A program made the position numbers and the translations under genes. From a virus, in the IMG/VR virus record IMGVR_UViG_3300042987_002109, positions 1-26,599 of that record: 26,599 bases of DNA. One strand, written 5' to 3'. Under the pieces are notes generated by a model. It was not told where the DNA came from. It made no database searches and worked only from the letters and a program-made list of their open reading frames with translations. Of this stretch, positions 1,319-23,668 are shown piece after piece (within the stretch, counting starts at the first letter, position 1; each line of letters begins with the position of its first letter).

Positions 1319-2041
1319 ATGCCTTTACCTAAAATTTCTACACCAACATTTGAGTTGGAATTGCCATCAAACGGGAAAAAAATTAAATATCGCCCATTTC
1401 TTGTCAGAGAAGAAAAAATTCTGATTATGGCACTTGAGACAGAAGATCTGAAACAAATTTCTGATGCAATTGTTCAGATTCTTTCTGAGTGTATTTTAAC
1501 AAAAAATATTAAGGTAGAAGACTTATCAACTTTTGATATCGAATACTTGTTTCTGAATGTTCGTGCAAAATCTGTTGGTGAAACTGTTGAAGTAAATATA
1601 ACTTGTCCTGATGATGGGGAAACAACAGTTCAATTAGAAATCAATATTGATGACATAAAGGTTCAAAAAGATCCAAAACATAATAATATTATTAAGTTGG
1701 ATGACAAACTTTCGATGAAATTAAAGTATCCAGCATTACATCAGTTTGTAGAAAACAACTTCGAGATATCTGCAGAGGGAAGTGATGTTAATAAATCTCT
1801 TTCTCTGATTAGTTCTTGTATTGATATGGTTTATGATGAAGAAGAATCTTGGAGTGCGGTAGATTGCACTAAAAAAGAACTTGAGGATTTTATTGAGCAG
1901 TTAAATACAAAGCAGTTTAAAGAAATTGAAACTTTCTTTACAACGATGCCAAAACTTTCTCATACAGTAAAAGTTAAAAATCCAAATACAAATGTGGAAA
2001 GTGAAATTGTTCTGGAGGGTCTAGCAAGTTTTTTCAGCTAG
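1319..2041 (+). CDS. gp26: Baseplate hub subunit gp26
   Basis: The 240-residue product has the character of the T4 gp26-type baseplate family (Pfam T4_baseplate): an N-terminal PTFELELPSNGKKIKYRPF segment, VREEKILIMALE, then ILSECIL and FDIEYLFLNVRAKSVGE. A CPDDGE turn sits between beta strands near residue 100. In T4, gp26 helps assemble the central hub of the baseplate, and phages of this group carry a longer version of it. The ATG is preceded by a weak AGGAC site. The stop is followed after two bases by the ATG of the gp51-like gene, so the two are probably translationally coupled. The gp26-gp51-hub order matches T4. Confidence in the family is high. Confidence 0.85.
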   Translation: MPLPKISTPTFELELPSNGKKIKYRPFLVREEKILIMALETEDLKQISDAIVQILSECILTKNIKVEDLSTFDIEYLFLNVRAKSVGETVEVNITCPDDGETTVQLEINIDDIKVQKDPKHNNIIKLDDKLSMKLKYPALHQFVENNFEISAEGSDVNKSLSLISSCIDMVYDEEESWSAVDCTKKELEDFIEQLNTKQFKEIETFFTTMPKLSHTVKVKNPNTNVESEIVLEGLASFFS

Positions 2042-2043
2042 GT

Positions 2044-2220
2044 ATGGCTCATACTAGTCTTGAGTCATACTACTTTGTAAATTTTCAGTTGATTCAGCAT
2101 CATAAATATTCTTTGAGTGAGATTGAGAATATGATTCCCTGGGAAAGGGATGTTTATGTTGGACTATTGAAAAATTATATTGAAGAAGAAAATCTGAAAC
2201 AGCAGCAAGCTAGTGGATAG
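2044..2220 (+). CDS. gp51: Small gp51-like baseplate hub assembly protein
   Basis: A 58-residue protein starts two bases after the gp26 stop and runs to TAG at 2218-2220. It reads MAHTSLESYYFVNFQLIQHH and continues with SLSEIENMIPWERDVYVGLL and an acidic, Gln-rich tail. Its place right after gp26 is where T4 encodes gp51, which catalyses hub assembly but is not in the mature virion. T4 gp51 is far longer (about 250 residues), so this would be a much reduced form; the label rests on synteny and on the same arrangement in related cyanophages. The YSLSEIENMIPWERDVY segment also recalls small assembly chaperones encoded beside tail genes. The downstream gene starts inside this one, an 8-base overlap. 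Confidence 0.65.
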   Translation: MAHTSLESYYFVNFQLIQHHKYSLSEIENMIPWERDVYVGLLKNYIEEENLKQQQASG

Positions 2221-3907
2221 TCAAATTTACAAAGCTCCATCCATACCAAAAATCAATAGAAGTAATATATCTTCTCCATTAATAAGAGGATCTTCTTCGC
2301 CTAAATTAGGTCTAAGGAGATCTTCATTTAAGTTTATAAAACCATTAATTTTAAAAAAATCATTAATAAGGTCTGCTGACATATTTGGAAGAAAAAATGC
2401 TGATAATTTAACACAAGCAGATTCAAATAAATCTCAAGGCATAGAAAATGCTTTAATTGAAACAAACAAAATTTTAGTAGAAATACAAAATCAATTAGCT
2501 ACTGATTTTGCTTTAAGAATTGCCGAAGAAAAGGAAAAAAATAAAAAGATAAAAGCAGTAGAATCTAAAAAAAGATTTTTAAGTAAAGAAGGTGCAATAG
2601 AATCCGTTAAAAAAATAGGGACAGGACTATCTAATCAGGTTGATAAAGTTCTTGCTCCCGCAAAAAGTATTTTTGAAAAAATTATTGAGTTTTTTAAAAT
2701 TGTCTTAACGGGAATTATAGTTAATAATGTTTTTAAATGGTTAGAAAAACCAGAAAATGCTAAAAAGTTAGCAAACTTTCTTGGATTTTTAGTAGGTCAC
2801 TGGAAAGAAATTCTTTTAATCTTAGGAACGATTAAGTTATTAGGTGCAATTGGAAAAATAATTACAGTAATTAAAACTTTGCAAGGATTGTTTGGATTAT
2901 TGATGGCAAATCCTATAACTTTGGCTATACTTGCTGGAGTAGGTGCTGCTTCTTTAAAAAATATTTCAGACAGAGAACAAGAAAAATTACTTGAAAAATC
3001 TGGATATCTTAAAAAGGAAGCAGAAAGAACAGGAAAAACACCAGAACAGGTGAGAGAAGAATTAAAAAATATTGAAAAAAGATCATTCCAAATACAAACT
3101 TTGACCAATCCTATGATTGGTCCAGGAGAACAATTCGCATATGGAGGCCAAGTTCCAGGATTGTTAAGATCATTTAAATCTATTGCTCGCAGATATGCTG
3201 ATGGTGGTACAGTCGTTCCGGGAACTAGAAAATCATCAGATACTGCAGACAACATTCCTGCCATGCTGTCTCAGGATGAATTTGTTGTTAGAGCACCTTC
3301 TGCTAGAATATTTAAACCAATTCTTCAAGATATTAATGAAAATGCTGGTCGTTTATGGGAACAATTTCAAAAAGCAGTAACAAAGTTAATGGAGGTAACT
3401 TCATTACAAAAAATTAATGCTGAAAAATTCAAAGAAGTTCTTGAAGATTATAATGAGTTCATACAAGATCAGGTACAAAAAATAAAATCAAAGGAAGACA
3501 AATATGGTGAAGGTGGTGGTATGGGTGGAGGATCTTCTATTCCATCAAGAACATCTTCAGCATCTCCTAGCAGAAAACCAAGCAGCATCAGTCCTCCTAA
3601 AATTAATATGGGAGGATCTGGAGGCGGTGGATCTATGCGTATGCCTACATCAAAAACTACTCCAATAAGATCATCATCTACGAGATCTTCAAATATTAGA
3701 CCAGTAACTACTAGTTCTACTATTCCCCAAGTTCAAAGAAAAAGAACACCAACAGTTATACCAATTAATTTACCAACTACAAAATCAGATCCACCAAAAT
3801 TACCAACATATCCAGCACAATCAACAGAAGTTCCTTCAATTTCTTCTGTGAATATGTCCAATATGTGGATGGAAAGAACACCACAATTATATGGAATAAT
3901 GGTGTAA
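2213..3907 (+). CDS. Tape-measure-like tail/hub structural protein (gp29 position), paralogue of the next gene
   Basis: The 564-residue frame begins at GTG 2213 inside the end of the gp51-like gene; no early in-frame ATG exists, so coupling from the upstream stop is likely. A coiled-coil region rich in Glu/Lys (about 60-125) precedes a hydrophobic helix, SIFEKIIEFFKIVLTGIIV (152-170), and then a long hydrophobic block (about 187-247). Next comes YADGGTVVPGTRKSSDTADN (328-347) leading into IPAMLSQDEFVVRAPSA, a motif common near the C-terminus of phage tape-measure proteins. The last 130 residues are Ser/Pro/Gly-rich and low in complexity. Tape-measure proteins set tail length and enter the cell envelope. 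Position corresponds to T4 gp28-gp29, but direct T4 homology cannot be claimed. Confidence 0.6.
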   Translation: MDSQIYKAPSIPKINRSNISSPLIRGSSSPKLGLRRSSFKFIKPLILKKSLIRSADIFGRKNADNLTQADSNKSQGIENALIETNKILVEIQNQLATDFALRIAEEKEKNKKIKAVESKKRFLSKEGAIESVKKIGTGLSNQVDKVLAPAKSIFEKIIEFFKIVLTGIIVNNVFKWLEKPENAKKLANFLGFLVGHWKEILLILGTIKLLGAIGKIITVIKTLQGLFGLLMANPITLAILAGVGAASLKNISDREQEKLLEKSGYLKKEAERTGKTPEQVREELKNIEKRSFQIQTLTNPMIGPGEQFAYGGQVPGLLRSFKSIARRYADGGTVVPGTRKSSDTADNIPAMLSQDEFVVRAPSARIFKPILQDINENAGRLWEQFQKAVTKLMEVTSLQKINAEKFKEVLEDYNEFIQDQVQKIKSKEDKYGEGGGMGGGSSIPSRTSSASPSRKPSSISPPKINMGGSGGGGSMRMPTSKTTPIRSSSTRSSNIRPVTTSSTIPQVQRKRTPTVIPINLPTTKSDPPKLPTYPAQSTEVPSISSVNMSNMWMERTPQLYGIMV

Positions 3908-3913
3908 TAAAAA

Positions 3914-5809
3914 ATGGAAAAAAATCAAGTTAAACAATTAAAACTAAATGTTACTAACATTAGAAGTGTTCTTGTCAATTCAAATAAAAAACTTAATAAA
4001 ATTCGTATTGAAAGAAACCAATTAACAACTAACTTAGAATATCAGAAAAAGTCTAAAGAAAAAGAAAAGAAAATAGAAGGAGGTGGAATTAAATCAACTC
4101 TTAGCAATATCAAAAATACTATATTATCCGGACCTATGAGTATTTTTGATAAGATTCTTGAATTTTTTGGTATTATATTGCTTGGTATAGTTGTTAATAA
4201 TTTACCACAAATTTTAAGCGGACTGCAAAAGTTTTTTGATTCTGAATTTATTAAAGGTGTAAAATCTTTTATAGGTGCCATAGTTGATGGTACTGGAAAA
4301 GTAATAAATTTTGTACAGGGATTTTCTACTGATCAGCAAAACAAAACAATTTCAGAAAGAAAAGAAATAAACAATAAGATTGACACATTAAAAACGGATT
4401 TAGATAAATTTAATCTTGATATTGAACAAAAGAAAAAACAAGTTGAACAAAATCAAAGAAATGCAAAGCCTTCTATGCCTGGACTGCCGCCAAGTGCTGC
4501 ACAACCAGGAACTGGACCATCTGGGAATAAAGTTGGATCAACTCCACAAAAAAGATCAACTGGTGGTTCAATAAGTGCTAGACAAACTAGCGGACAAACC
4601 GGAAGAGAAAGAAGAGCAAGACAATCTGTAAATTACTTTGAAACATTTAATCAGACTGTAACAAAATCAAAACAAAATACAATAGCAGATAAAAAAAATA
4701 TTGAATTGTTTGAAGAAATGACTTCAAATTTTAAAGAATTTACTAAAATAATGGATAAAATATCTCCTATGACGCCTCCAGGTGATAATCCCGTTTCTGA
4801 AAATGAGGGTCCTCCTATTATTGATGGAAAAATATATGAAAGTGAAGGTGGTGAAAAACCTAGTAAATATCCTGGAAGAGGAATTAATCCACCTTCTGGA
4901 CAAAATACTCATGGATATCCAGCACGAGATTATGCAATTGTTAAAGGAACTCCTGTTTCGGTTTTTATTCCAGGTGAAATTGAATTTGCAGGAATTAGAG
5001 ATCCTAATGGGTATGGAAATGAAATAGTTGTGAGGCATACGAATGGGCAGAAAACTAGATATGCACACTTATCTCAAATATTAGTTAAACAAGGTGATAA
5101 AATTGAAGCAGGTCAAACTAGAATGATTGGAAAAACAGGAGGAAAACCTGGAGATTTTGGGGCTGGGAGAACAACAGGAGAACATTTACACTTTGAACTA
5201 CTTGATGCCTCCGGAAATAAAATTACAAATTATAATACCGGGGATAATTATTTTAGATTTGGTGGGAATATTAAGGTTAAAGAATCAAAATTAACTACTG
5301 CCTCTACTTTAAATGGGGAAATAAGTTGGTATGGTCCTGGATTTTATGGGAAAAAAACAGCAAATGGTGAAACATTTACTGGTAATGATTTAACAGCTGC
5401 TCACAAAACACTTCCATTTGGAACAAAGGTTAGAATTACTTCTGGTAGTAGAAGTATAATAGTGAGAATTAATGATAGAGGTCCTTTTATTGCGGGAAGA
5501 GTTATAGATTTGAGTAGAGTTGCCATGGAACAACTAAGAGGTCTTGCACCAGGAACTCTTTTAAAAGATCCAAATATTGGGGGAGTTATTAATGGTGCAA
5601 AAATTGAAGTTCTAGGCACCACACCATCAAAACCGGGTGGTGGTCCAAACATAAGTAGTTTAAAACCAAGTCCTTACTCAAAGGTTGCTCTAAATAAATT
5701 ACCATTCTTAATGGAAGAAGATTCTGGTTCTGATGTTATTTTGATGGCAGTTCAACCAGTTGAGAAATATGTTCCTCTTCCATACCCAATTCCAATAAGG
5801 TCGGCATAA
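3914..5809 (+). CDS. Tape-measure-like protein with M23 endopeptidase and RlpA-like transglycosylase domains
   Basis: This 631-residue protein has an N-terminal coiled coil (1-55), a hydrophobic helix [19 protein letters not shown] (76-94) that matches the preceding protein, a second coiled coil (about 145-182) and a Pro/Gly/Ser linker. Residues about 318-440 look like a LytM/M23 peptidase: H333 and D339 (HGYPARD), H385 (YAHLS) and H424-L-H426 (GEHLHFE). Residues about 466-570 are an RlpA-like double-psi barrel: [35 protein letters not shown] and VIDLSRVA. E486, H497 and D521 align with the acidic/His residues of active RlpA lytic transglycosylases. M23 enzymes cut peptide cross-links and RlpA cuts naked glycan. 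It starts six bases after the previous stop. It probably acts on peptidoglycan at DNA entry, replacing the missing gp5 lysozyme. Confidence 0.82.
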
Positions 5810-5812
5810 TAA

Positions 5813-7096
5813 ATGGCAAACGCAGCATCAGCATCCAAATACGAATTAATGACTCTTGATAAGAATGGTAAAGGAGTGCGTTTGGAAGGAAAAACAGTAA
5901 CCTTTAATTACTACGAGAGTTTATTATCTCCATGTATTACTGCGAATTTAATATTTGTAGATACTGGTGCCTCTATTATTGGTAATAAAAAGTATGATAA
6001 TCAAGAGAGATTAACAAACATTTATAATGGACTACCAATTACTGGTAATGAAAAATTATTTGTTAAGATACAATCAAAGTTAGGTTCCTTAGATTTTCAA
6101 AAAAATCCATTATACGTGAATGATTCTGCTTCTCCCGGAGAGGAGTCGAACAGAAAAATAGTTGTTCTTGGATTAGTTTCAAATGCTGCCATTTTAGATA
6201 AAGAATCTACCTTATTTCAAAATTATGGTGGGAGAATTAGTGATACAGTAAAACGAATAGTATCAACAGAATTAAAAATAAAAAGCGATAAATTTTTTGC
6301 AACTCCTACTAAAAATTCATATAATTTTCTTGGAAATTGTAAAAGTCCTTTTGAAACCTTGTGTTTATTAGCATCCAAATCAGTACCAGAGAAGGGGAAT
6401 CCTGGATACTTTTTTTATGAAACATCTAGAGGATTTAATTATAAAGCAATTGATGATTTAATTAAACAAGAACCAAAAGCAACATACTTTAGGACTGATG
6501 TATTAAGATCAGGGGTTGAAACTGATGAAAATGATTTCAAAATATCCTCATTTAACATTATTAAAAATCAAAATGTAATGAGTGCCTTAGAATCTGGAGT
6601 TTATGTAAGTAGAAATGTTTTCTTTGATCCGAGATACTTTAAATATACTGAAATTGTATGTAAATTGCCAGAAAAAGAACTTCCTCTAGAAGAAACTTTA
6701 GGTAAAAAGGAAGTTGAAATTCCAACAAATAAAAGTTTTACACGAACTCACTATCATATTCTCGATGTTGGTACATTAGATCCAACAGTTTCCGGCAATA
6801 CAAATAATTCTCCATTATATTGGCAGGCAAAATCAACTATGAGATATAATTTGCTATTCACGCAAGTTATCAATATGACTGTTCCTTGTAATCCACAATT
6901 ATGTGCCGGTGATATTATAAAATGTAATTTTGAAACTGTAAGTCAGGATAAAAAAGAAATGGGATCTAATGATTCGACTCAAAGTGGGAATTATTTGATT
7001 CTGAATTTATGTCATCATTTTGATGCAAAAAGGTCATTTACGTCTATGACCCTAGTTCGTGATACCTATGGTCTATATACTAAAAAGAGAGGATAA
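5813..7096 (+). CDS. Baseplate hub protein, gp27-like
   Basis: The 427-residue product has the layout expected of a tail hub protein: an N-terminal beta domain (FNYYESLLSPCITANLIFVD) of the tail-tube type, a middle domain with SDTVKRIVSTELKI and FETLCLLASKSVP, and a YFFYETSRGFNYKAIDDLI block that recurs in hub proteins of contractile tails. The C-terminal part again has tube-like strands (TQVINMTVPCNPQLCAGDII). T4 gp27 (391 residues) forms the trimeric ring that carries gp5. The next gene here encodes the gp5 OB domain, which fits that partnership. The start three bases after the upstream stop shows tight operon packing. Recognition is structural and contextual rather than by strong sequence identity. 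Confidence 0.7.
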   Translation: MANAASASKYELMTLDKNGKGVRLEGKTVTFNYYESLLSPCITANLIFVDTGASIIGNKKYDNQERLTNIYNGLPITGNEKLFVKIQSKLGSLDFQKNPLYVNDSASPGEESNRKIVVLGLVSNAAILDKESTLFQNYGGRISDTVKRIVSTELKIKSDKFFATPTKNSYNFLGNCKSPFETLCLLASKSVPEKGNPGYFFYETSRGFNYKAIDDLIKQEPKATYFRTDVLRSGVETDENDFKISSFNIIKNQNVMSALESGVYVSRNVFFDPRYFKYTEIVCKLPEKELPLEETLGKKEVEIPTNKSFTRTHYHILDVGTLDPTVSGNTNNSPLYWQAKSTMRYNLLFTQVINMTVPCNPQLCAGDIIKCNFETVSQDKKEMGSNDSTQSGNYLILNLCHHFDAKRSFTSMTLVRDTYGLYTKKRG

Positions 7097-7104
7097 GTTA
7101 ATCC

Positions 7105-7632
7105 ATGATGGATTCTAATTTTGCCTTTGCAGGTTCAAATATGAAATGGTTTGTGGGGCAAGTAGTTCCAAATTGGAATGAATATAATCAAAATGGAACT
7201 TGGAAAACAGCATGGGGTAACAGAGTTAAAGTAAGAATACCAGCACTACATTCAAAAGACGGATCTGTACTGCCAGATTCCAAGTTACCTTGGGCAATAG
7301 TTGCCGAACCAACTACTCATGGAAATTCAAGTAGTGGATCTGTTAGTCTTATTGGTGGTGAATGGGTAAGGGGATACTTCTTAGATTCTGATAGTCCAAA
7401 TCCACAAATTCCAGTAATTTCTGAGGTTTTACCTATAAACTTTGAAAAAATTGAAATAGGACCTGCTGATATAAGTAGCAATATATATTCACAATCTACA
7501 GAATTTAAAACTATTGATAGGTTTATCACTTGGGATCCTGGAATGCATCAAACAATAGGTGGAATGAAACCACAATCACAAGCAAAACCAACAACGGAAG
7601 AATTTCAAAAATCTAAGACGGCAAATAAATAG
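7105..7632 (+). CDS. gp5: gp5 OB-fold domain protein (baseplate spike base, no lysozyme domain)
   Basis: Residues about 13-110 of this 175-residue protein parallel the N-terminal OB domain of T4 gp5: MKWFVGQVV, GNRVKVRIPALHSKDGSV, LPDSKLPWAIVAEPTT, GSVSLIGGEWVRGYFLD and then VISEVLP. That domain seats gp5 on the gp27 ring. T4 gp5 has 575 residues with a T4-lysozyme domain and a triple beta-helix; both are absent here and the C-terminus is a short polar tail rich in Gln, Lys and Thr. Peptidoglycan-cutting domains lie instead in the 3914 gene, and a needle-like beta protein is encoded at 9816. Two ATG codons occur in tandem (7105 and 7108). Coupled position after the gp27-like gene supports a hub complex. 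Confidence 0.82.
   Translation: MMDSNFAFAGSNMKWFVGQVVPNWNEYNQNGTWKTAWGNRVKVRIPALHSKDGSVLPDSKLPWAIVAEPTTHGNSSSGSVSLIGGEWVRGYFLDSDSPNPQIPVISEVLPINFEKIEIGPADISSNIYSQSTEFKTIDRFITWDPGMHQTIGGMKPQSQAKPTTEEFQKSKTANK
7624..7631 (+). promoter_or_regulatory. Late-promoter-like box AATAAATA
   Basis: AATAAATA overlaps the stop of the gp5 OB gene and is 19 bases before the next ATG. It fits the NATAAATA late-promoter form. Not decisive in A+T-rich DNA. Confidence 0.35.
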
Positions 7633-7650
7633 GACACTAGGTAAAAAATA

Positions 7651-9804
7651 ATGGCAAATGTATTTAAACCAGGTAAATTTTATATAAATCCTAAGGATGG
7701 AAATGTATTTGAGATAAATTCATCTGGAACTGGATATAGAGTTGCTAAATCTGGAGAAAACATTCAAACATTAGAATTTGTACCATTTATACCCATATCT
7801 CAAACAGTATCAGGAAGTCCTAGAATTAGTGTTGAAGATTTTAATGGATTTATTAGGGAAGGATTAATTATACCATATACACCACCACCATCTTCTTCCT
7901 CCACAGCAACAACATATACAACAGGACCCATAGCATTACAAGTAATTCCTTTTGGTGGAAATGCACCATCACAAACACCATCACCATCACAAACACCACC
8001 ACAAGCACCAGCACCCTCAACATTATTAGAACCTTCAACAAATCCATTTTTGAGAATTGATGATGATAGTGATAGTTATGTTCTGGGATTAACTAATGAA
8101 GATTTAAAAATAGTTTCTGATACAATTCAAGAACAATTAAATTCAGATGATCCTGCAATAAGAGCTCAAGGTCAGGCAGCGAGAGAATTATTAAGACAAG
8201 CAATTAAAACAGACAAAGAAAGATTTGGTAAGTGTGTAAAACTTCAAACCAATAAAGGTGGCGGCATAATATGGGATGAGTCGCCAGAGTGTGCTAAGTA
8301 TGTTAATAGCGTAGAGTACCAAACAATAAAATCATTAGTAGAAGTCCCCGAAATTGATCTTACAGACACTTGTGGCACATCTACGGTAGCAAAAATAGAT
8401 ACTGCACTATTAAATTTCTTTAACACATTAAAGGAAATTCAAAAATATGGAGAAGTTTATGTTCTTCCAGCAATCAATAAACTTCAAAGTATCACATCAT
8501 TAGTTCGTAATACTGCAGAAATTATCGGTGCGGTATTACGAACTCTTGTACAAAGACTAAGAAATTGGATTATAGAAAAAATAAGAAGGGGATTAAATGA
8601 TTTAAAAGATATAATTTTCCCCAAAATTGCTTCATTAATCAAAGATACTGTTGTCGAACAAGTTATTCAAGCATTAATTTGTGCATTTGATGAGATTATA
8701 AATGGTCTTATTGATTTTGTAATTGATTTTCTAATGGCTCTTGTGAATCAAATTATTAATCCAGTGTTTTGTGCTGCTGAGCAATTTATAAATGCGATGA
8801 TTAATTCATTAGCAAAGCAAATAGATGAAAAATTAGGTCCTATTTTAGATCAAATTAGTGATGTTCTTGGTCAAGGTGCTAAAATCGTTGGATCAGTTCT
8901 TCAAGGAATTGATTATATTCTTGGTTTTGAATCATTTTTATGTGCCAAACCAAATTGCGAACAAATTAAAAAGTTTAGATTAGGACCAGATGGAAATGGT
9001 CCAAGTCAAACTCAAATAGATAATTGGAATAATACCTTAAATAAAGTTCCATCAGAGAGTGATATAGTTGCTGGTGCCGATTCTTTAATTGGTGGTCTTC
9101 TTGGAGATGCATCTAGTGTGGATGCTGGACCATTAGATTGTAATACAGATCCATATCGTTGCGGACCTCCAAAAGTTGTTTTATTTGGTGGAGGTGGAAT
9201 TGGAGCTGCTGCTGATGCGATTGTAGATACTGTCGGTCAAGTAGTCGGTGTTAATTTAAAATTTGGTGGATCTGGGTATGATTCTCCACCATTTGTTGTA
9301 TTTGAAGATAGTTGTAACAGAGGAAGAGGAGCTTCTGCATATGCAGAGATTGAAAATGGTCAGGTAACATCAATTATATTGGTTAGTTCTGGAGGTGGAT
9401 ATTTAAATCAACCAGATGGGACGGATGAATTTGGAACTCCAGAAGAATCTTTAGTCGCTCAAGAACAAAATGTAAGAGATTATATTGGATGCTTACGTGA
9501 TTTTCAAGTTCTTAATACTGGATATGGATATAGTGTAAATGATTCTATAACGTTAGATCCAGATATTCCGAACTTACAAGCTTCAGTGTCTATTACTGAA
9601 CAGGGACAAATTGTATCAATTACCCCATTAAATTTACCTTGCAACATTACTGAGATTCCAACAGTCAGAATAAATAGTAATACTGGAGCAGGGGCGGTTA
9701 TAAGACCAGTAATTAAATTTACTGCAATTGAAGATTTTGAGCCAGAAAAAGAAGGATTCGATCCTCAAAAACTTGTAAGAGTAATTGATTGTGTTAGTAG
9801 GTAA
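7651..9804 (+). CDS. 717-aa virion structural protein with helical core and C-terminal beta repeats
   Basis: I do not recognise a named family. The N-terminus (1-75) is a small beta domain (FYINPKDGNVFEINSSGTGY). A Pro/Ser/Thr-rich linker follows (about 77-131), including a tandem repeat in the DNA. Residues about 245-425 form a long, strongly amphipathic-to-hydrophobic helical region (ALICAFDEIINGLIDFVIDF and neighbours). Residues about 535-690 contain two copies of a beta repeat with G-x-GY, a following P, then GASAYAEIENGQVTSIILVS or the corresponding LQASVSITEQGQIVSI. Thirteen cysteines are spread along the protein, many for a phage structural protein. Its place between the gp5 OB gene and the needle-like gene suggests a tail-tip or baseplate component; the exact role is unknown. 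Confidence 0.6.
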   Translation: MANVFKPGKFYINPKDGNVFEINSSGTGYRVAKSGENIQTLEFVPFIPISQTVSGSPRISVEDFNGFIREGLIIPYTPPPSSSSTATTYTTGPIALQVIPFGGNAPSQTPSPSQTPPQAPAPSTLLEPSTNPFLRIDDDSDSYVLGLTNEDLKIVSDTIQEQLNSDDPAIRAQGQAARELLRQAIKTDKERFGKCVKLQTNKGGGIIWDESPECAKYVNSVEYQTIKSLVEVPEIDLTDTCGTSTVAKIDTALLNFFNTLKEIQKYGEVYVLPAINKLQSITSLVRNTAEIIGAVLRTLVQRLRNWIIEKIRRGLNDLKDIIFPKIASLIKDTVVEQVIQALICAFDEIINGLIDFVIDFLMALVNQIINPVFCAAEQFINAMINSLAKQIDEKLGPILDQISDVLGQGAKIVGSVLQGIDYILGFESFLCAKPNCEQIKKFRLGPDGNGPSQTQIDNWNNTLNKVPSESDIVAGADSLIGGLLGDASSVDAGPLDCNTDPYRCGPPKVVLFGGGGIGAAADAIVDTVGQVVGVNLKFGGSGYDSPPFVVFEDSCNRGRGASAYAEIENGQVTSIILVSSGGGYLNQPDGTDEFGTPEESLVAQEQNVRDYIGCLRDFQVLNTGYGYSVNDSITLDPDIPNLQASVSITEQGQIVSITPLNLPCNITEIPTVRINSNTGAGAVIRPVIKFTAIEDFEPEKEGFDPQKLVRVIDCVSR
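7964..7998 (+). repeat. Short tandem repeat, 18-bp period
   Basis: CACCATCACAAACACCA occurs at 7964-7980 and again at 7982-7998, an exact copy with an 18-base period. It encodes the (P)SQTPSP-type repeat in the linker of the 717-aa structural protein. The period keeps the reading frame, so copy number could change linker length without breaking the gene. Confidence 0.8.
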
Positions 9805-9815
9805 AGTAAATTAAA

Positions 9816-10406
9816 ATGGCACAGAAAAAACCACCAGGTCATGAAATATCAAATAATTTTTATGGGTTTTTAAAATACGGGCCTCACGATAAAAATGAAA
9901 ATACCTCACTTACTATGAGTGCAAAGGGAGGTTATCGTCTTATAACAAATGAGAATGGAAATTCTCAGGTTGTTTGTGCTGGAAAAAGTGAAGAAGTTGT
10001 TGGATATAATTGGGAAAAGCAATTTGGTAATGAAGAAATACCTAGAGAAACGATTGCCAAAGCTATTGTTGCTAAAAATGGTGATATAGTTATTAATGCA
10101 GAAAATGGTTATGTAAAAATAAAGGCAAAAGGAATTTTTATAGAATCATCATCCTCCAAATCTGGACAAGGAAATATAAACATCGCAGCAAATGGTCCCA
10201 TCACAATTGCAAGTAATGATAAAGTTACACTTGGAGGATGCACTCTGTGTTTAAGAGGTCAATCTGGGATTGATTTAGCAACGCAAGGATTGGTTAAAGT
10301 TGTTGGAGAACTTACAGAGGTAAAACCATTTTCTGTACTTTCTTTTCTTGATCCAGCAGCAGGATTGACATCTTTAATTCAAAACTTATTACTCACTTGT
10401 AAATAA
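9816..10406 (+). CDS. Needle-like beta-helical tail spike protein (gp5 C-terminal domain type)
   Basis: The 196-residue protein is dominated by short, regular beta repeats: KNGDIVINAENGYVKIKAKG (85-109 region), then GNINIAANGPITIASNDKVTL. Such G-D/N-I-x-I-x-A repeats are typical of triple-stranded beta-helix needles, as in the gp5 C-terminus and VgrG-like spikes. The N-terminal part (LTMSAKGGYRLITNENG) also shows beta strands. The end is hydrophobic (FLDPAAGLTSLIQNLLL). Because the gp5 OB gene lacks a needle, this product is a good candidate for the detached spike tip; that is inference. It starts 11 bases after the upstream stop and ends two bases before the next gene. Confidence 0.6.
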   Translation: MAQKKPPGHEISNNFYGFLKYGPHDKNENTSLTMSAKGGYRLITNENGNSQVVCAGKSEEVVGYNWEKQFGNEEIPRETIAKAIVAKNGDIVINAENGYVKIKAKGIFIESSSSKSGQGNINIAANGPITIASNDKVTLGGCTLCLRGQSGIDLATQGLVKVVGELTEVKPFSVLSFLDPAAGLTSLIQNLLLTCK

Positions 10407-10408
10407 TT

Positions 10409-11230
10409 ATGGCACATTTTCAAGATTTATCCTGCTCATCATTCAGCACACTTGGTCCTCTAGGAGAAGCACTTAATATACCTAAGTCTTTTTGGGAACC
10501 TGGATCTGCTTCTTTTTATAAAGGACATTTTGGGAGTGGATCAATCGCTGCTCCATTTTCTGCTGCACTTGTTGTTGGTCCATCACCCACCTCACCACTT
10601 TCTATTAATACACTTGGTCTTGAAGTTCTAAATGGAATTAGAAATGTTTTTGGAGTAGATACCAAAACCGGTCAAGATATATCATTAGGAGCATTAAGAT
10701 CATCTTATGCTGCTCTAGATAGTTCTGGATCTGCACTTATATCAAAAGTAATTCCTCAAACTATAGAAGTTTCACCAAATGTTTGGAGTCTTAGTTCTAA
10801 ATGGGATGTTGGAGGTTTTGCCAGATATAATGGTAGAATAATTTCTACAGAACCAGACTCTACATCAGATATTCGTCTTAAAAAGAATATTACTCGTTTC
10901 GATGAAGGTCTTAATATTGTTTTAAATTTAAAACCAGTGCGATTTGATTGGAGAGAAGATAAATGCCCATCATCATTCCTAAAAGAATTTAGAGAACCTG
11001 ATGATGAATATGGATATCCAGGAAAGATCAAGAGGCAATATGGTTTAATTGCACAGGAAGTTGAAGAAATTGCCCCCGATTTGATTGGCGAAAAACCAAT
11101 GTATGATAAAAATTATAAAATGATTCGTTATGAAAAAATTGTTCCTATTTTAATTTCTGCAGTTCAAGAGCAACAAAAACAAATTGAAGAACTTAAGAAT
11201 GAAATTAATTTATTAAAACAAAATAAATAA
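10409..11230 (+). CDS. Small structural protein with C-terminal S74 intramolecular chaperone domain
   Basis: The C-terminal half of this 273-residue protein is a peptidase S74 (endosialidase-type) intramolecular chaperone domain: SDIRLKKNITRF (153-164), LNLKPVRFDWRE, YGLIAQEVEEIAPDLI (211-226), YEKIVPILISAVQEQ and a final coiled coil QKQIEELKNEINLL. S153 and K158 correspond to the Ser-Lys pair that self-cleaves in endosialidases, so autoproteolysis is plausible. The N-terminal 150 residues are Gly/Ser/Ala-rich without long fibre repeats, unlike the large fibres that usually carry this domain. It probably trimerises a short fibre or spike segment and may release the chaperone part. It lies in the same operon as the needle-like and LamG genes. 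Confidence 0.8.
   Translation: MAHFQDLSCSSFSTLGPLGEALNIPKSFWEPGSASFYKGHFGSGSIAAPFSAALVVGPSPTSPLSINTLGLEVLNGIRNVFGVDTKTGQDISLGALRSSYAALDSSGSALISKVIPQTIEVSPNVWSLSSKWDVGGFARYNGRIISTEPDSTSDIRLKKNITRFDEGLNIVLNLKPVRFDWREDKCPSSFLKEFREPDDEYGYPGKIKRQYGLIAQEVEEIAPDLIGEKPMYDKNYKMIRYEKIVPILISAVQEQQKQIEELKNEINLLKQNK
11222..11229 (+). promoter_or_regulatory. Late-promoter-like box AATAAATA
   Basis: AATAAATA overlaps the stop codon of the S74 gene and is 24 bases before the ATG at 11254. It matches the NATAAATA form seen before other genes here. Confidence 0.35.
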
Positions 11231-13264: not shown

Positions 13265-13450
13265 ATGCCTGCCGAAGAAGTCCTGACAAAATGTGTTGTT
13301 GATACGCTTGCCCGCAAGTTTTACCTGTATTCTAGTGAAGGTGGAGAGCGTGTTGTTGAATGCGAAACTGTAGATCAGTTTATGAATGTCTTGGAGGTTG
13401 TGCGAGATAAACTTGATGAGGATACTCTAGTTTATAGTAATCCTTTTTGA
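13265..13450 (+). CDS. Small conserved-type phage protein, unknown function (61 aa)
   Basis: The 61-residue product starts MPAEEVLTKCVVDTLARKFY and continues with LYSSEGGERVVECETVDQFM, then a helix and an acidic end. It looks like one alpha-beta unit: a strand pair (KFYLYSSEGGERVVEC) followed by a helix (VDQFMNVLEVVRDKL). It resembles small proteins encoded by T4-like cyanophages, but I know of no assigned function. A consensus sigma70-type promoter lies directly upstream, so unlike the virion genes around it this one is probably transcribed early by the host RNA polymerase. Start choice is supported by promoter spacing. Confidence 0.75.
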   Translation: MPAEEVLTKCVVDTLARKFYLYSSEGGERVVECETVDQFMNVLEVVRDKLDEDTLVYSNPF

Positions 13451-13452
13451 TG

Positions 13453-13460
13453 CATAAATA
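13453..13460 (+). promoter_or_regulatory. Late-promoter-like box CATAAATA
   Basis: CATAAATA lies three bases after the 61-aa gene stop and ends nine bases before the ATG of the Phd-like gene, so a transcript from it would have almost no leader. It may be a real late promoter or a chance match. Confidence 0.3.
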
Positions 13461-13469
13461 ACGGAAAAA

Positions 13470-13640
13470 ATGGAAGTTTTCACCGTGAAAGAATTTCAAG
13501 AACGTTTTGACGAACTAATTGGGAGAGTGGAAATGGGAGAGCAAATAGGAATAGTTGATGAGAATGGTAAGGCAGCGGTTATGATACCTGCAGATGATGA
13601 ACTTATACGAATATACACGGACCACGAAGAAGGTTCTTGA
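13470..13640 (+). CDS. Phd/YefM-like antitoxin-family protein, no adjacent toxin
   Basis: The 56-residue product has the shape of the N-terminal DNA-binding part of Phd/YefM antitoxins: MEVFTVKEFQERFDELIGRV (beta strand then helix), then EMGEQIGIVDENGKAAVMIP, matching the family pattern of a GE turn, an I-I-V strand, an N-G-K turn and a closing V-x-I-P strand. The usual C-terminal toxin-binding tail is short or absent (only about 16 residues after the P). Phd proteins bind their own operator and neutralise a Doc or RelE-type toxin. No toxin gene is adjacent. It could be a solo transcription repressor or neutralise a host toxin. Its stop overlaps the -35 of the tRNA promoter, which suggests possible autoregulation of that region. 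Confidence 0.65.
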   Translation: MEVFTVKEFQERFDELIGRVEMGEQIGIVDENGKAAVMIPADDELIRIYTDHEEGS

Positions 13641-13665
13641 CAAAGAGTTCCAGATCCTCTAAAAT
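13637..13665 (+). promoter_or_regulatory. Sigma70-type promoter for the tRNA cluster
   Basis: TTGACA (13637-13642) and TAAAAT (13660-13665) are 17 bases apart; the -35 overlaps the stop codon of the Phd-like gene. The expected start, near 13672, is just ahead of the first tRNA-like gene at 13681. The -10 lies inside the loop of a perfect 7-bp inverted repeat. Confidence 0.75.
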
Positions 13666-13680
13666 TGATCTGGGTTTTAT
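13650..13680 (+). terminator. Inverted repeat with T-rich tail, possible terminator or operator
   Basis: CCAGATC (13650-13656) and GATCTGG (13667-13673) form a perfect 7-bp stem with a 10-base loop, followed by GTTTTAT. It could terminate the Phd-like transcript. It also surrounds the -10 of the tRNA promoter, so an operator is equally possible. Confidence 0.45.
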
Positions 13681-13768
13681 GGTCGTCAGAACAGGTGTTC
13701 AGAGGGGCCTTATAAGCCCTTTGCCCCAGATTAGGGCCTTTGGCAGGGTTCGATACCCTGGGCGACTA
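13681..13768 (+). tRNA. Atypical tRNA-like gene with an Ile(UAU)-type anticodon loop
   Basis: The 88-base element has a 7-bp acceptor helix (GGTCGTC with GGCGACT, two G-T pairs), a discriminator A and CC (no full CCA). Its T arm is perfect, CAGGG-TTCGATA-CCCTG. An anticodon-type hairpin has loop CTTATAA (13709-13715), giving UAU and decoding AUA. The rest is irregular. The D arm is GAAC-AGGT-GTTC with only a four-base loop, one base separates it from each neighbour, the anticodon helix extends to seven pairs, and a hairpin GCCC...GGGC (13723-13737) plus six bases fills the variable region. Long variable arms belong to Leu, Ser and Tyr tRNAs, not Ile. It may be a degenerate or a specialised tRNA-like RNA. 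It abuts tRNA-Met three bases downstream. Confidence 0.5.
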
Positions 13769-13771
13769 CCT

Positions 13772-13844
13772 GCTCCTTTAGCTATCTGGTGAAAGCAATC
13801 GACTCATAATCGATCTCAGGTGGGTTCGATCCCCTCAAGGAGCA
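13772..13844 (+). tRNA. tRNA-Met(CAU), or tRNA-Ile2(CAU)
   Basis: A 73-base cloverleaf: acceptor GCTCCTT/AAGGAGC (7 pairs), T8 A9, D stem GCT/AGC, anticodon stem ATCGA/TCGAT with loop CTCATAA (anticodon CAT), variable CTCAG, and T arm GTGGG-TTCGATC-CCCTC with one T-T mismatch. CCA is not encoded. The paired G1-C72 excludes an initiator. Whether C34 is modified to lysidine, making it an AUA-reading isoleucine tRNA, cannot be told from sequence. Confidence 0.9.
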
Positions 13845-13845
13845 C

Positions 13846-13874
13846 TTGACCACTACGACTCTATGAGTTATAAT
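13846..13874 (+). promoter_or_regulatory. Sigma70-type promoter between tRNA-Met and tRNA-Leu
   Basis: TTGACC (13846-13851) and a perfect TATAAT (13869-13874) have a 17-base spacer. The -35 begins one base past tRNA-Met. Transcription would start near 13881, about six bases before tRNA-Leu, which would give it its own transcript. Confidence 0.8.
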
Positions 13875-13886
13875 GGTCTCATACAC

Positions 13887-13970
13887 GGGGCGGTGACGTA
13901 ACTGGTAGCCGTATCAGACTTAAAATCTGCTGGGAGTATTCCCGTGGGGGTTCGATTCCCCCTCGCCCTA
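13887..13970 (+). tRNA. tRNA-Leu(UAA)
   Basis: An 84-base class II cloverleaf: acceptor GGGGCGG/TCGCCCT, D stem ACG/CGT with a GG-containing loop, anticodon stem with loop CTTAAAA (anticodon TAA), a long variable arm GGGA-GTAT-TCCC, and a GC-rich T arm GGGGG-TTCGATT-CCCCC with discriminator A73. CCA is not encoded. UUA codons are very frequent in the A+T-rich virion genes here, so the tRNA probably supports late translation in a more G+C-rich host. Confidence 0.93.
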
Positions 13971-19949: not shown

Positions 19950-20522
19950 ATGCACAATTTTCCAATTATCATAAAAAATGTTTTACCAATTAAAACTTTT
20001 TTATCAATAAATGATGAATTTAGATATGCTGGATGGCAACTTACTAATTATTCTGATGGAGGTTTAGGAAATGAAAGAAAAGCGTGGAAACTTAATGATC
20101 GAAATACTCAATTAATTATGTTTGAATGTGCTTCAATTATAAAATTAAAGATAAAAAAATATTTAAACAAAGATATATTTTTTATCCGAGCACACAGTAA
20201 TGGAAGCACTTTTGGACAAACATCTAATTTTCATATAGATTTTGATGAAGACGATGTTTGGACTTTTATTTTATTTTCTTCAATGAATTGGAACACTCAG
20301 TGGGGTGGAGAATTTGTATGTTTTGATCCAATAAATAAGGAATACAAGTATGTGCCATATATTCCAAATACCGGATGTTTAATACCATCAAATTGGCATC
20401 ATTATGGTTCATCTCCTAATGAAACTACAGATTGTTTGAGAACTACACTTGCATTTAGTTTTTGTTCAAGTAATTCCTTTGAGTCTGTCAGTAAAAATTC
20501 TATTACCAAACAATTTTTATGA
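19950..20522 (+). CDS. 2OG-Fe(II) oxygenase, prolyl-hydroxylase-like (first of three)
   Basis: The 190-residue protein has the double-stranded beta-helix pattern of 2-oxoglutarate/Fe(II) dioxygenases of the prolyl-4-hydroxylase type. Visible parts are TSNFHIDFDEDDVWTF with the HxD pair H95 and D97, WGGEFVCFDP, CLIPSNWHHYGSSPN with the distal His (H150 or H151), and R164 in the strand LRTTLAFSF, which would bind 2-oxoglutarate. It uses O2 and 2-oxoglutarate to hydroxylate a substrate; the substrate is unknown. It lies between two fibre genes and overlaps the next oxygenase by four bases (ATGA), so the two are translationally coupled. Fibre proline or lysine hydroxylation is a reasonable guess; nucleotide or sugar modification is also possible. 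Confidence 0.8.
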   Translation: MHNFPIIIKNVLPIKTFLSINDEFRYAGWQLTNYSDGGLGNERKAWKLNDRNTQLIMFECASIIKLKIKKYLNKDIFFIRAHSNGSTFGQTSNFHIDFDEDDVWTFILFSSMNWNTQWGGEFVCFDPINKEYKYVPYIPNTGCLIPSNWHHYGSSPNETTDCLRTTLAFSFCSSNSFESVSKNSITKQFL

Positions 20523-23053: not shown

Positions 23054-23668
23054 ATGATACATAAATCCCAATATAATCATATATCTCTACCGAATCCTGG
23101 TATTACTCTTTCAACCATACCAGATGAAGTTTATTCATCTATTATGAAAGAATCTCACGAGATTCAATCAAATTGGAGTTCTCATGAGAGATGGGGTGAA
23201 GGTCTAGTAGGTAATATGGAAAAGCAATATAAGCTTACGAGATCCGTATCCGTATTAGAACCATTTCTTAATGATATGTGTAAGGAATATACTAGTTATT
23301 GGAATTGGTTTCATAAGGAAGAAGACTTCAAACTTGATCAATTATGGATTAATTTTCAACAGAAAAATGAGTTTAATCCAGTTCATCATCATAGCGGAAC
23401 ATTCAGTTTTGTATGTTGGTTAAAAATTCCATATCATCTTAATGATGAACTAAATGCTCCTCATGTAAAAGATTCAAATGCAAAGGTGGCATCAACATTT
23501 CAATTTGTCTATACAAACATTCTTGGAAGAGTGAGTATTGACACTGCATATGTTGATCAAGACTGGGAGAAAAAAATAATTCTGTTTCCAGCATCACTAT
23601 CACACTGCGTTCATCCATTTTCTACTAGCGATGGATATAGAATATCCATATCAGGAAATCTAATTTAA
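23054..23668 (+). CDS. 2OG-Fe(II) oxygenase-like protein (third of three)
   Basis: The 204-residue product has an N-terminal helical region followed by NEFNPVHHHSGTFSFVCWLK (residues 105-124), with H111-H113 placed as the proximal Fe ligands, and later KKIILFPASLSHCVHPFSTS (173-192) with H184 or H187, then R196 in YRISISGNL for the 2-oxoglutarate carboxylate. This resembles the putative 2OG-Fe(II) oxygenases common in T4-like cyanophages. The motif differs from the other two, so these are separate lineages and not recent copies. It has its own host-type promoter rather than the fibre transcript, so it may be expressed earlier. The substrate is unknown. Confidence 0.72.
   Translation: MIHKSQYNHISLPNPGITLSTIPDEVYSSIMKESHEIQSNWSSHERWGEGLVGNMEKQYKLTRSVSVLEPFLNDMCKEYTSYWNWFHKEEDFKLDQLWINFQQKNEFNPVHHHSGTFSFVCWLKIPYHLNDELNAPHVKDSNAKVASTFQFVYTNILGRVSIDTAYVDQDWEKKIILFPASLSHCVHPFSTSDGYRISISGNLI

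Follow-up and report, generated by a model that had tools for sequence, protein, structure and literature searches.

In bacteriophage T4 the spike device is formed by gp27, gp5 and the PAAR tip protein gp5.4, the gp5 gene encoding an OB domain, a GH24 lysozyme and a beta-helix, and the mature spike is made of two chains, gp5* and gp5C, resulting from a cut at Ser351/Ala352 (PMC3004832). Lysozyme-free spikes with an enzyme located elsewhere in the tail are already known: in phage P1 the gp5 needle has no lysozyme, and an SLT domain has been proposed to reside on the tape measure Sit (PMC9024508). In the Anabaena phage A-1(L), endoglucanase and peptidase domains of the hub act on Anabaena cells (PMC10966104). 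T4-like cyanophages such as S-T4, Sf-CH8 and P-SSM2 possess a one-chain gp5 of the family phrog_1922, composed of OB, helical and beta parts without lysozyme and followed by the needle in the next gene, while the wall enzyme, where found, is borne by one of two tape-measure-position proteins, here named X and Y. In this study we analysed the corresponding locus in the virus record IMGVR_UViG_3300042987_002109 (26,599 bases, G+C 33.7%), the whole of which is referred to below as the window, and in which the OB domain of gp5 stands on a gene of its own; this OB-only state, shared by a clade of related phages, is what is new here.

The window carries, in order, genes for the tail tube, gp26, X, the enzyme-bearing Y, a gp27-like protein, gp5 divided into an OB protein and a body protein, and the needle, followed by fibres and tRNAs, a gene order by which the locus can be assigned to a T4-like cyanophage (Kyanoviridae) as its tail-hub operon; the relatives suggest a cyanobacterial host. 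The arrangement agrees with that of the one-chain phrog_1922 phages in the order of its parts, in its lysozyme-free gp5, in its separate needle and in the placement of the enzyme, but OB and body, which form one open reading frame (ORF) in those phages, occupy two in the window. With T4 it shares a homologous OB domain, a predicted needle resembling gp5C and the position of the hub, whereas the T4 lysozyme has no counterpart in gp5 here and the needle is not part of the gp5 gene. The removal of the enzyme from the spike, with a proposed location on the tape measure, is reminiscent of P1, in which, unlike in the window, OB and needle form one chain and no body protein has been described. As for A-1(L), both wall-cutting domains of the window match its hub protein gp15 (8kea), which likewise combines a DPBB-type endoglucanase with an M23-type peptidase, tested there on cyanobacterial cells; in A-1(L) these enzymes are part of the hub, whereas in the window they are found on Y.

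The OB protein (Table 1) matches the "baseplate hub and tail lysozyme" families over the first ~110 positions only and aligns to phrog_1922 positions 13-112 (E 1.9e-21), and a profile of its family (seven members) finds T4 gp5 residues 6-89 (E 6e-8), so that, judged by profile comparison, its N-terminal domain is homologous to the OB domain of T4 gp5. The next ORF, that of the body, continues gp5 along phrog_1922 positions 212-654 (E 1.3e-59); the one-chain family is thus collinear with OB and body taken together, but the window uses two ORFs. These lie in the same frame and are parted by two stops (TAG at 7630-7632 and TAA at 7642-7644), therefore the split is not a one-base error, and pairwise ratios of nonsynonymous to synonymous substitution rates (dN/dS) of 0.07-0.32 indicate that the OB-only gene is maintained under purifying selection. 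In most of the split clade the OB protein has a C-terminal extension (EFKxTLxWY...) which is not aligned in fused gp5 and which may replace the lost covalent link to the body. An earlier note, made from the letters of the window alone, had described a gp5 taken apart into OB domain, needle and cell-wall enzyme on three genes. Their separation is borne out by domain content; the count of three is not, as the large body at 7651-9804 was overlooked, and the accompanying description of T4 gp5 as one chain holds for the gene product before maturation, not for the mature spike.

No recognised enzyme, and no lysozyme in particular, was found in the body, the first 233 residues of which have no counterpart in other split-clade bodies. 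For its helical part, Foldseek and VIA searches with the model of the body matched generic helical bundles, which were set aside. One beta module of the body (residues 616-688, ~9496-9714) is similar to residues ~90-186 of gp18, the tail sheath protein of T4, both by hidden Markov model comparison (E 8e-7) and by VIA (Z 7.0, 73 residues, 2.4 A, 23% identity), and in three loci of the split clade (L105, L107 and L108) the body reaches ~1300 residues owing to a big insertion between the beta modules.

The distribution of the detached OB was surveyed by alignment-based IMG/VR scans and in GenBank regions, yielding 108 loci with OB and body both identified; single-protein scans were insufficient, as that with the needle (9816) gave one locus, L009, which proved to be false (its ORFs include NrdA-like genes but none for a spike), and that with the OB protein (7105) gave no locus. 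OB is fused to the body in 85 of the 108 loci, in a single ORF of mostly 650-1040 residues, and separate in 23, some of which are redundant records of the same virus, so that besides the window about nine distinct viruses remain: L015 (with the near-identical L090-L094), L095, L097, L099, L105, L107, L108, L110 and L111. A further split OB is present in the Kyanoviridae single-cell genome AG-345-L05 (MH319754). A gp27 tree with 40 fused and 9 split rows (49 in all; quick method, midpoint root) needs a single change for the split state, which defines one clade (Shimodaira-Hasegawa-like approximate likelihood ratio test 100). As this clade is nested, and as the fused form is that of T4 and of most relatives, the event was probably a fission and not a fusion. 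Within the clade the distance from OB stop to body start varies from -4 to +42 nucleotides in two relative frames, which points to independent starts with no conserved recoding signal; recoding between OB and body was accordingly ruled out. The detached OB therefore marks one whole, previously unremarked phage lineage, and cyanophages with an OB-only gp5 are not described in the literature searched, outside of which most subscription journals lay.

The detached OB is the unusual feature of the window, the rest being the family's standard arrangement. Lysozyme was found on none of 56 T4-like cyanophage gp5 proteins scanned, which together with the enzymes on X or Y and the separate needles makes the lysozyme-free gp5 a general design not specific to the window. 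Whole-record searches of 12 relatives, among which seven are GenBank records that are complete or long, gave exactly one gp5 OB in each, and in none was a lysozyme (GH24, PF00959) located on the OB chain; the lysozyme-bearing gp5 elsewhere in the genome that would have contradicted the earlier note was thus not found in these relatives. Their GH24 matches fall on Y-position proteins and, in DSL-LC03, on a free 236-residue frame. Break points other than that of the window also occur. In Syn33, the sequence of which was read directly, a single lysozyme-free chain runs from OB through the helical region to a needle-like C-terminus of repeats, and such a chain is also present in Stenotrophomonas phage BUCT608, with OB, helical region and Gp5_C repeats; in AG-345-O18 gp5 is broken between the OB plus helical part and the beta part, and in P-HM1 it is divided differently again, a second gene being annotated as gp5 with a weak Gp5_trimer_C match. 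The beta part in AG-345-O18 (L126, 10911-16121) belongs to a separate 1736-residue protein with PA14 domains.

The needle candidate was compared with spike families by profile, and the top PDB matches are spikes of injection devices, led by VgrG (8gra, 5.5e-4) and followed by extracellular contractile injection system (eCIS) spikes (7aef, 3.4e-3, and 7b5h, 7e-3), with the phage tail tip gp86 also among them; Pfam gathering scores were not reached (DUF2345 19.3 bits against 30.7, Gp5_trimer_C likewise). In its AlphaFold monomer model (mean predicted local distance difference test score, pLDDT, 82) the middle is largely extended and lacks intrachain strands, as expected for a single chain of a triple beta-helix, and the best VIA match is to VgrG residues 456-605 (Z 7.8, 142 residues), T4 gp5 386-576 being also among the fold matches. 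Members of this family are nearly always located just 3' of gp5, and in nearly all complete survey loci the gene immediately after gp5 encodes a needle. By profile, modelled fold and synteny the protein is therefore a predicted separate needle of the gp5C/VgrG type, in agreement with the earlier note. The needle-position protein of S-CREM2, gp212, regarded as such from its position and a reading of its sequence with no profile match, is present in purified virions (PMC10665884).

The wall-cutting domains that had been assigned to Y were recovered by domain searches as an M23 peptidase, which retains the HxH and YAH motifs, and a DPBB domain, which retains the conserved histidine and the NDRGPF...IDLS motifs. 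Across the T4-like cyanophages, M23 occurs on 34 of 79 Y proteins scanned, and other Y proteins bear Phage_lysozyme2, VanY, SLT, GH24, Hydrolase_2, DPBB or GH19 domains; a few X proteins bear wall-enzyme domains in place of Y. Even within the split clade the content of Y varies (M23 with DPBB, M23, Phage_lysozyme2 with M23, VanY or GH24). X and Y are paralogous in their N-terminal ~120 residues (profile comparison: 117 columns, 95.9%, E 6e-9), have a fixed position in relatives between gp26/gp51 and the hub genes, and include some tape-measure PHROG matches. Both are contained in purified virions of S-CREM2 (gp208 and gp209, with 73 and 71 unique peptides; PMC10665884), and both are marked as virion proteins in the GenBank notes of S-SCSM1. 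The paralogous N-termini and the greater length of both proteins in a long-tailed relative would be compatible with a two-chain tape measure (2213-5809).

On this evidence we consider it likely that the window encodes a split multi-part spike with the wall enzymes on Y, gp5 having been dismantled stepwise within the family: lysozyme is absent in all phages examined, the needle has a gene of its own in most, and in one clade, that of the window, the OB domain is detached as well. Three gp27-like and three OB chains would close the end of the tube, trimers of the body and of the needle would lengthen the spike, and the spike would pierce the outer membrane mechanically, the murein being cut by the M23 and DPBB domains of Y and not by the spike. 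Y would probably be kept in the tail tube as the tape measure or part of it and be freed as the tube empties, a role suggested by its position, the N-terminal domain shared with X and its greater length in S-CREM2; the tube may plausibly serve to deliver the enzyme. Separate translation of the parts would be tolerable because spikes are oligomers held together by interfaces, and T4 too cuts its gp5 at maturation. A more specific proposal, in which the clade's spike is composed of a separately translated OB adaptor, a helical-beta body and a needle, with exchangeable enzymes on a two-chain X + Y tape measure, is put forward tentatively, as a possibility that falls short of being probable.

Several points weigh against this reading. 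The window is only a 26.6 kb fragment, and no structure or proteome of any split-clade phage was found. With a mean pLDDT of 58.5 the model of the body is poor, so that the body can at best be given a tentative place in the spike, and the needle has a fold match of modest strength (VIA Z 7.8; best Foldseek E 1.5e-3). In the M23 domain of the window the histidine of HxxxD, a zinc ligand, is displaced by two residues, making its activity uncertain, and the X/Y pairs of P-SSM2 and AG-345-L05 carry no recognised enzyme, so that a wall enzyme is not universal. Direct profile comparison of X and Y with T4 gp29 detected no homology; distant relatives of T4 are reported to have gp29 proteins too diverged for BLAST to recognise (PMC2147016). 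The lengths of X and Y (1565 + 1456 residues in S-CREM2, with a tail of 418 nm, as against 933 + 722 in S-N03, with one of 138 nm) are not proportional to tail length. Finally, the S-CREM2 authors, who list both enzyme proteins as lysis proteins, place them possibly inside the capsid (PMC10665884). The enzymes of Y might then be not tube cargo but virion-associated lysins of the capsid or baseplate, or serve in lysis, and the equivalent domains of A-1(L) do sit in its hub; given the fixed position of X and Y next to the hub genes, their much greater length in the long-tailed S-CREM2 and the tape-measure matches, we regard this as rather unlikely, though far from negligible. The idea of the earlier note of an enzyme travelling within the tube is accordingly, in view of the gp29 result and the capsid location suggested for S-CREM2, an interpretation rather than an observation, as is the assignment of 3914-5809 as a tape measure.

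A stronger competitor, with close to an even chance of being correct, is ordinary domain shuffling, in which a neutral in-frame stop turned OB into a separate cistron and penetration proceeds as in the relatives; body and needle are indeed otherwise collinear with those of fused relatives, and gp5 is divided elsewhere in AG-345-O18, undivided in Syn33 and differently divided in P-HM1. Against pure neutrality, the OB extension shared by most of the clade and the persistence of the split in all of its known members hint at an interface. A single OB-body gene, interrupted in the record by faulty sequencing or assembly or translated across the gap through readthrough or frameshifting, would fit the common frame of the two ORFs in the window; it is extremely improbable in light of the two stops, the split in about ten independent genomes, the junction's varying frame and spacing and the purifying selection acting on the OB-only gene. 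The needle candidate, for its part, could belong to a peripheral fibre or adhesin, as it is followed by a gene with an S74 fibre chaperone domain and by more fibre genes, and beta-structures of T4 gp34 appear lower in its fold list; with spikes leading its PDB profile matches, fold matches spanning VgrG 456-605 and T4 gp5 386-576, and a conserved place directly 3' of gp5, this is improbable. On balance, the split spike with enzymes on Y remains preferred; the observation of the earlier note is confirmed and its interpretation partly supported.

Table 1. Features of the tail-hub region of the window.
Feature	Position	Strand	Evidence and remarks
gp26-like baseplate hub assembly protein, gene-order anchor	1319..2041	+	PF12322, E 1e-73; same place in relatives
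Protein X, tape-measure position	2213..3907	+	GTG start as listed; N-terminus paralogous with Y; no enzyme domain found
Protein Y, tape-measure position, two wall-cutting domains	3914..5809	+	domain searches
M23 peptidase domain of Y, residues 339-431	4928..5206	+	Peptidase_M23, E 8e-18; aligned to zoocin A and ShyA
DPBB (RlpA-like) domain of Y, residues 467-541	5312..5536	+	DPBB_1, E 2e-20; PA4485, 4.4e-21; A-1(L) hub, 1.1e-14
gp27-position hub protein	5813..7096	+	phrog_350 "tail protein", E 1.4e-89
Stand-alone gp5 OB protein, 175 residues	7105..7632	+	OB at residues 1-110 (7105-7434), then a tail partly common to the split clade
gp5 body	7651..9804	+	unique N-terminus, residues 1-233; helical, ~234-430; beta modules, ~500-700; no lysozyme
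Predicted needle, gp5C/VgrG-like, own gene, 196 residues	9816..10406	+	probable beta-helix at residues ~70-165

As regards the neighbouring genes, the gp27-position protein is a clear member of the cyanophage tail-protein family phrog_350, its profile matches to T4 gp27 (E 0.027, below significance) and to the P1 hub gp6 (E 0.052) being weak. No PAAR tip gene was found in the window, an absence that is uninformative in a fragment. The gene 3' of the needle (10409-11230) resembles its counterpart in L015 at the N-terminus and ends in an S74 endosialidase-type chaperone domain. Small ORFs at 13265-13970 encode a DUF7294 protein and a Phd/YefM-like antitoxin (25.1 bits, below the cut-off) and are adjoined by three tRNAs (Ile-TAT, Met and Leu); a Phd-like antitoxin and tRNAs are also present in the corresponding neighbourhood of Syn33. 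Two 2-oxoglutarate-Fe(II) oxygenase-like genes (19950-20522 and 23054-23668) lie amid the fibre genes.

In conclusion, the window clade represents one more step of a modular spike and not a different principle: the "different piercing device" of the earlier note was not upheld, as in T4-like cyanophages at large the enzyme is relocated and the needle stands on a separate gene, and an enzyme on the tape measure together with a lysozyme-free spike had been put forward earlier for P1 (PMC9024508). For annotation this means that many cyanophage genes named "baseplate hub subunit and tail lysozyme" have no detectable lysozyme, wall-cutting activity more likely residing in proteins encoded nearby, which frequently carry the label hypothetical, peptidase or endolysin. 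The family offers a natural series, beginning with one chain and proceeding to a detached needle and then to a detached OB as well, which probes the covalent links that a contractile spike needs, and a single locus in it shows the turnover of wall enzymes. If the more specific proposal with the two-chain tape measure is true, then enzyme, spike and length ruler would evolve as independent modules.

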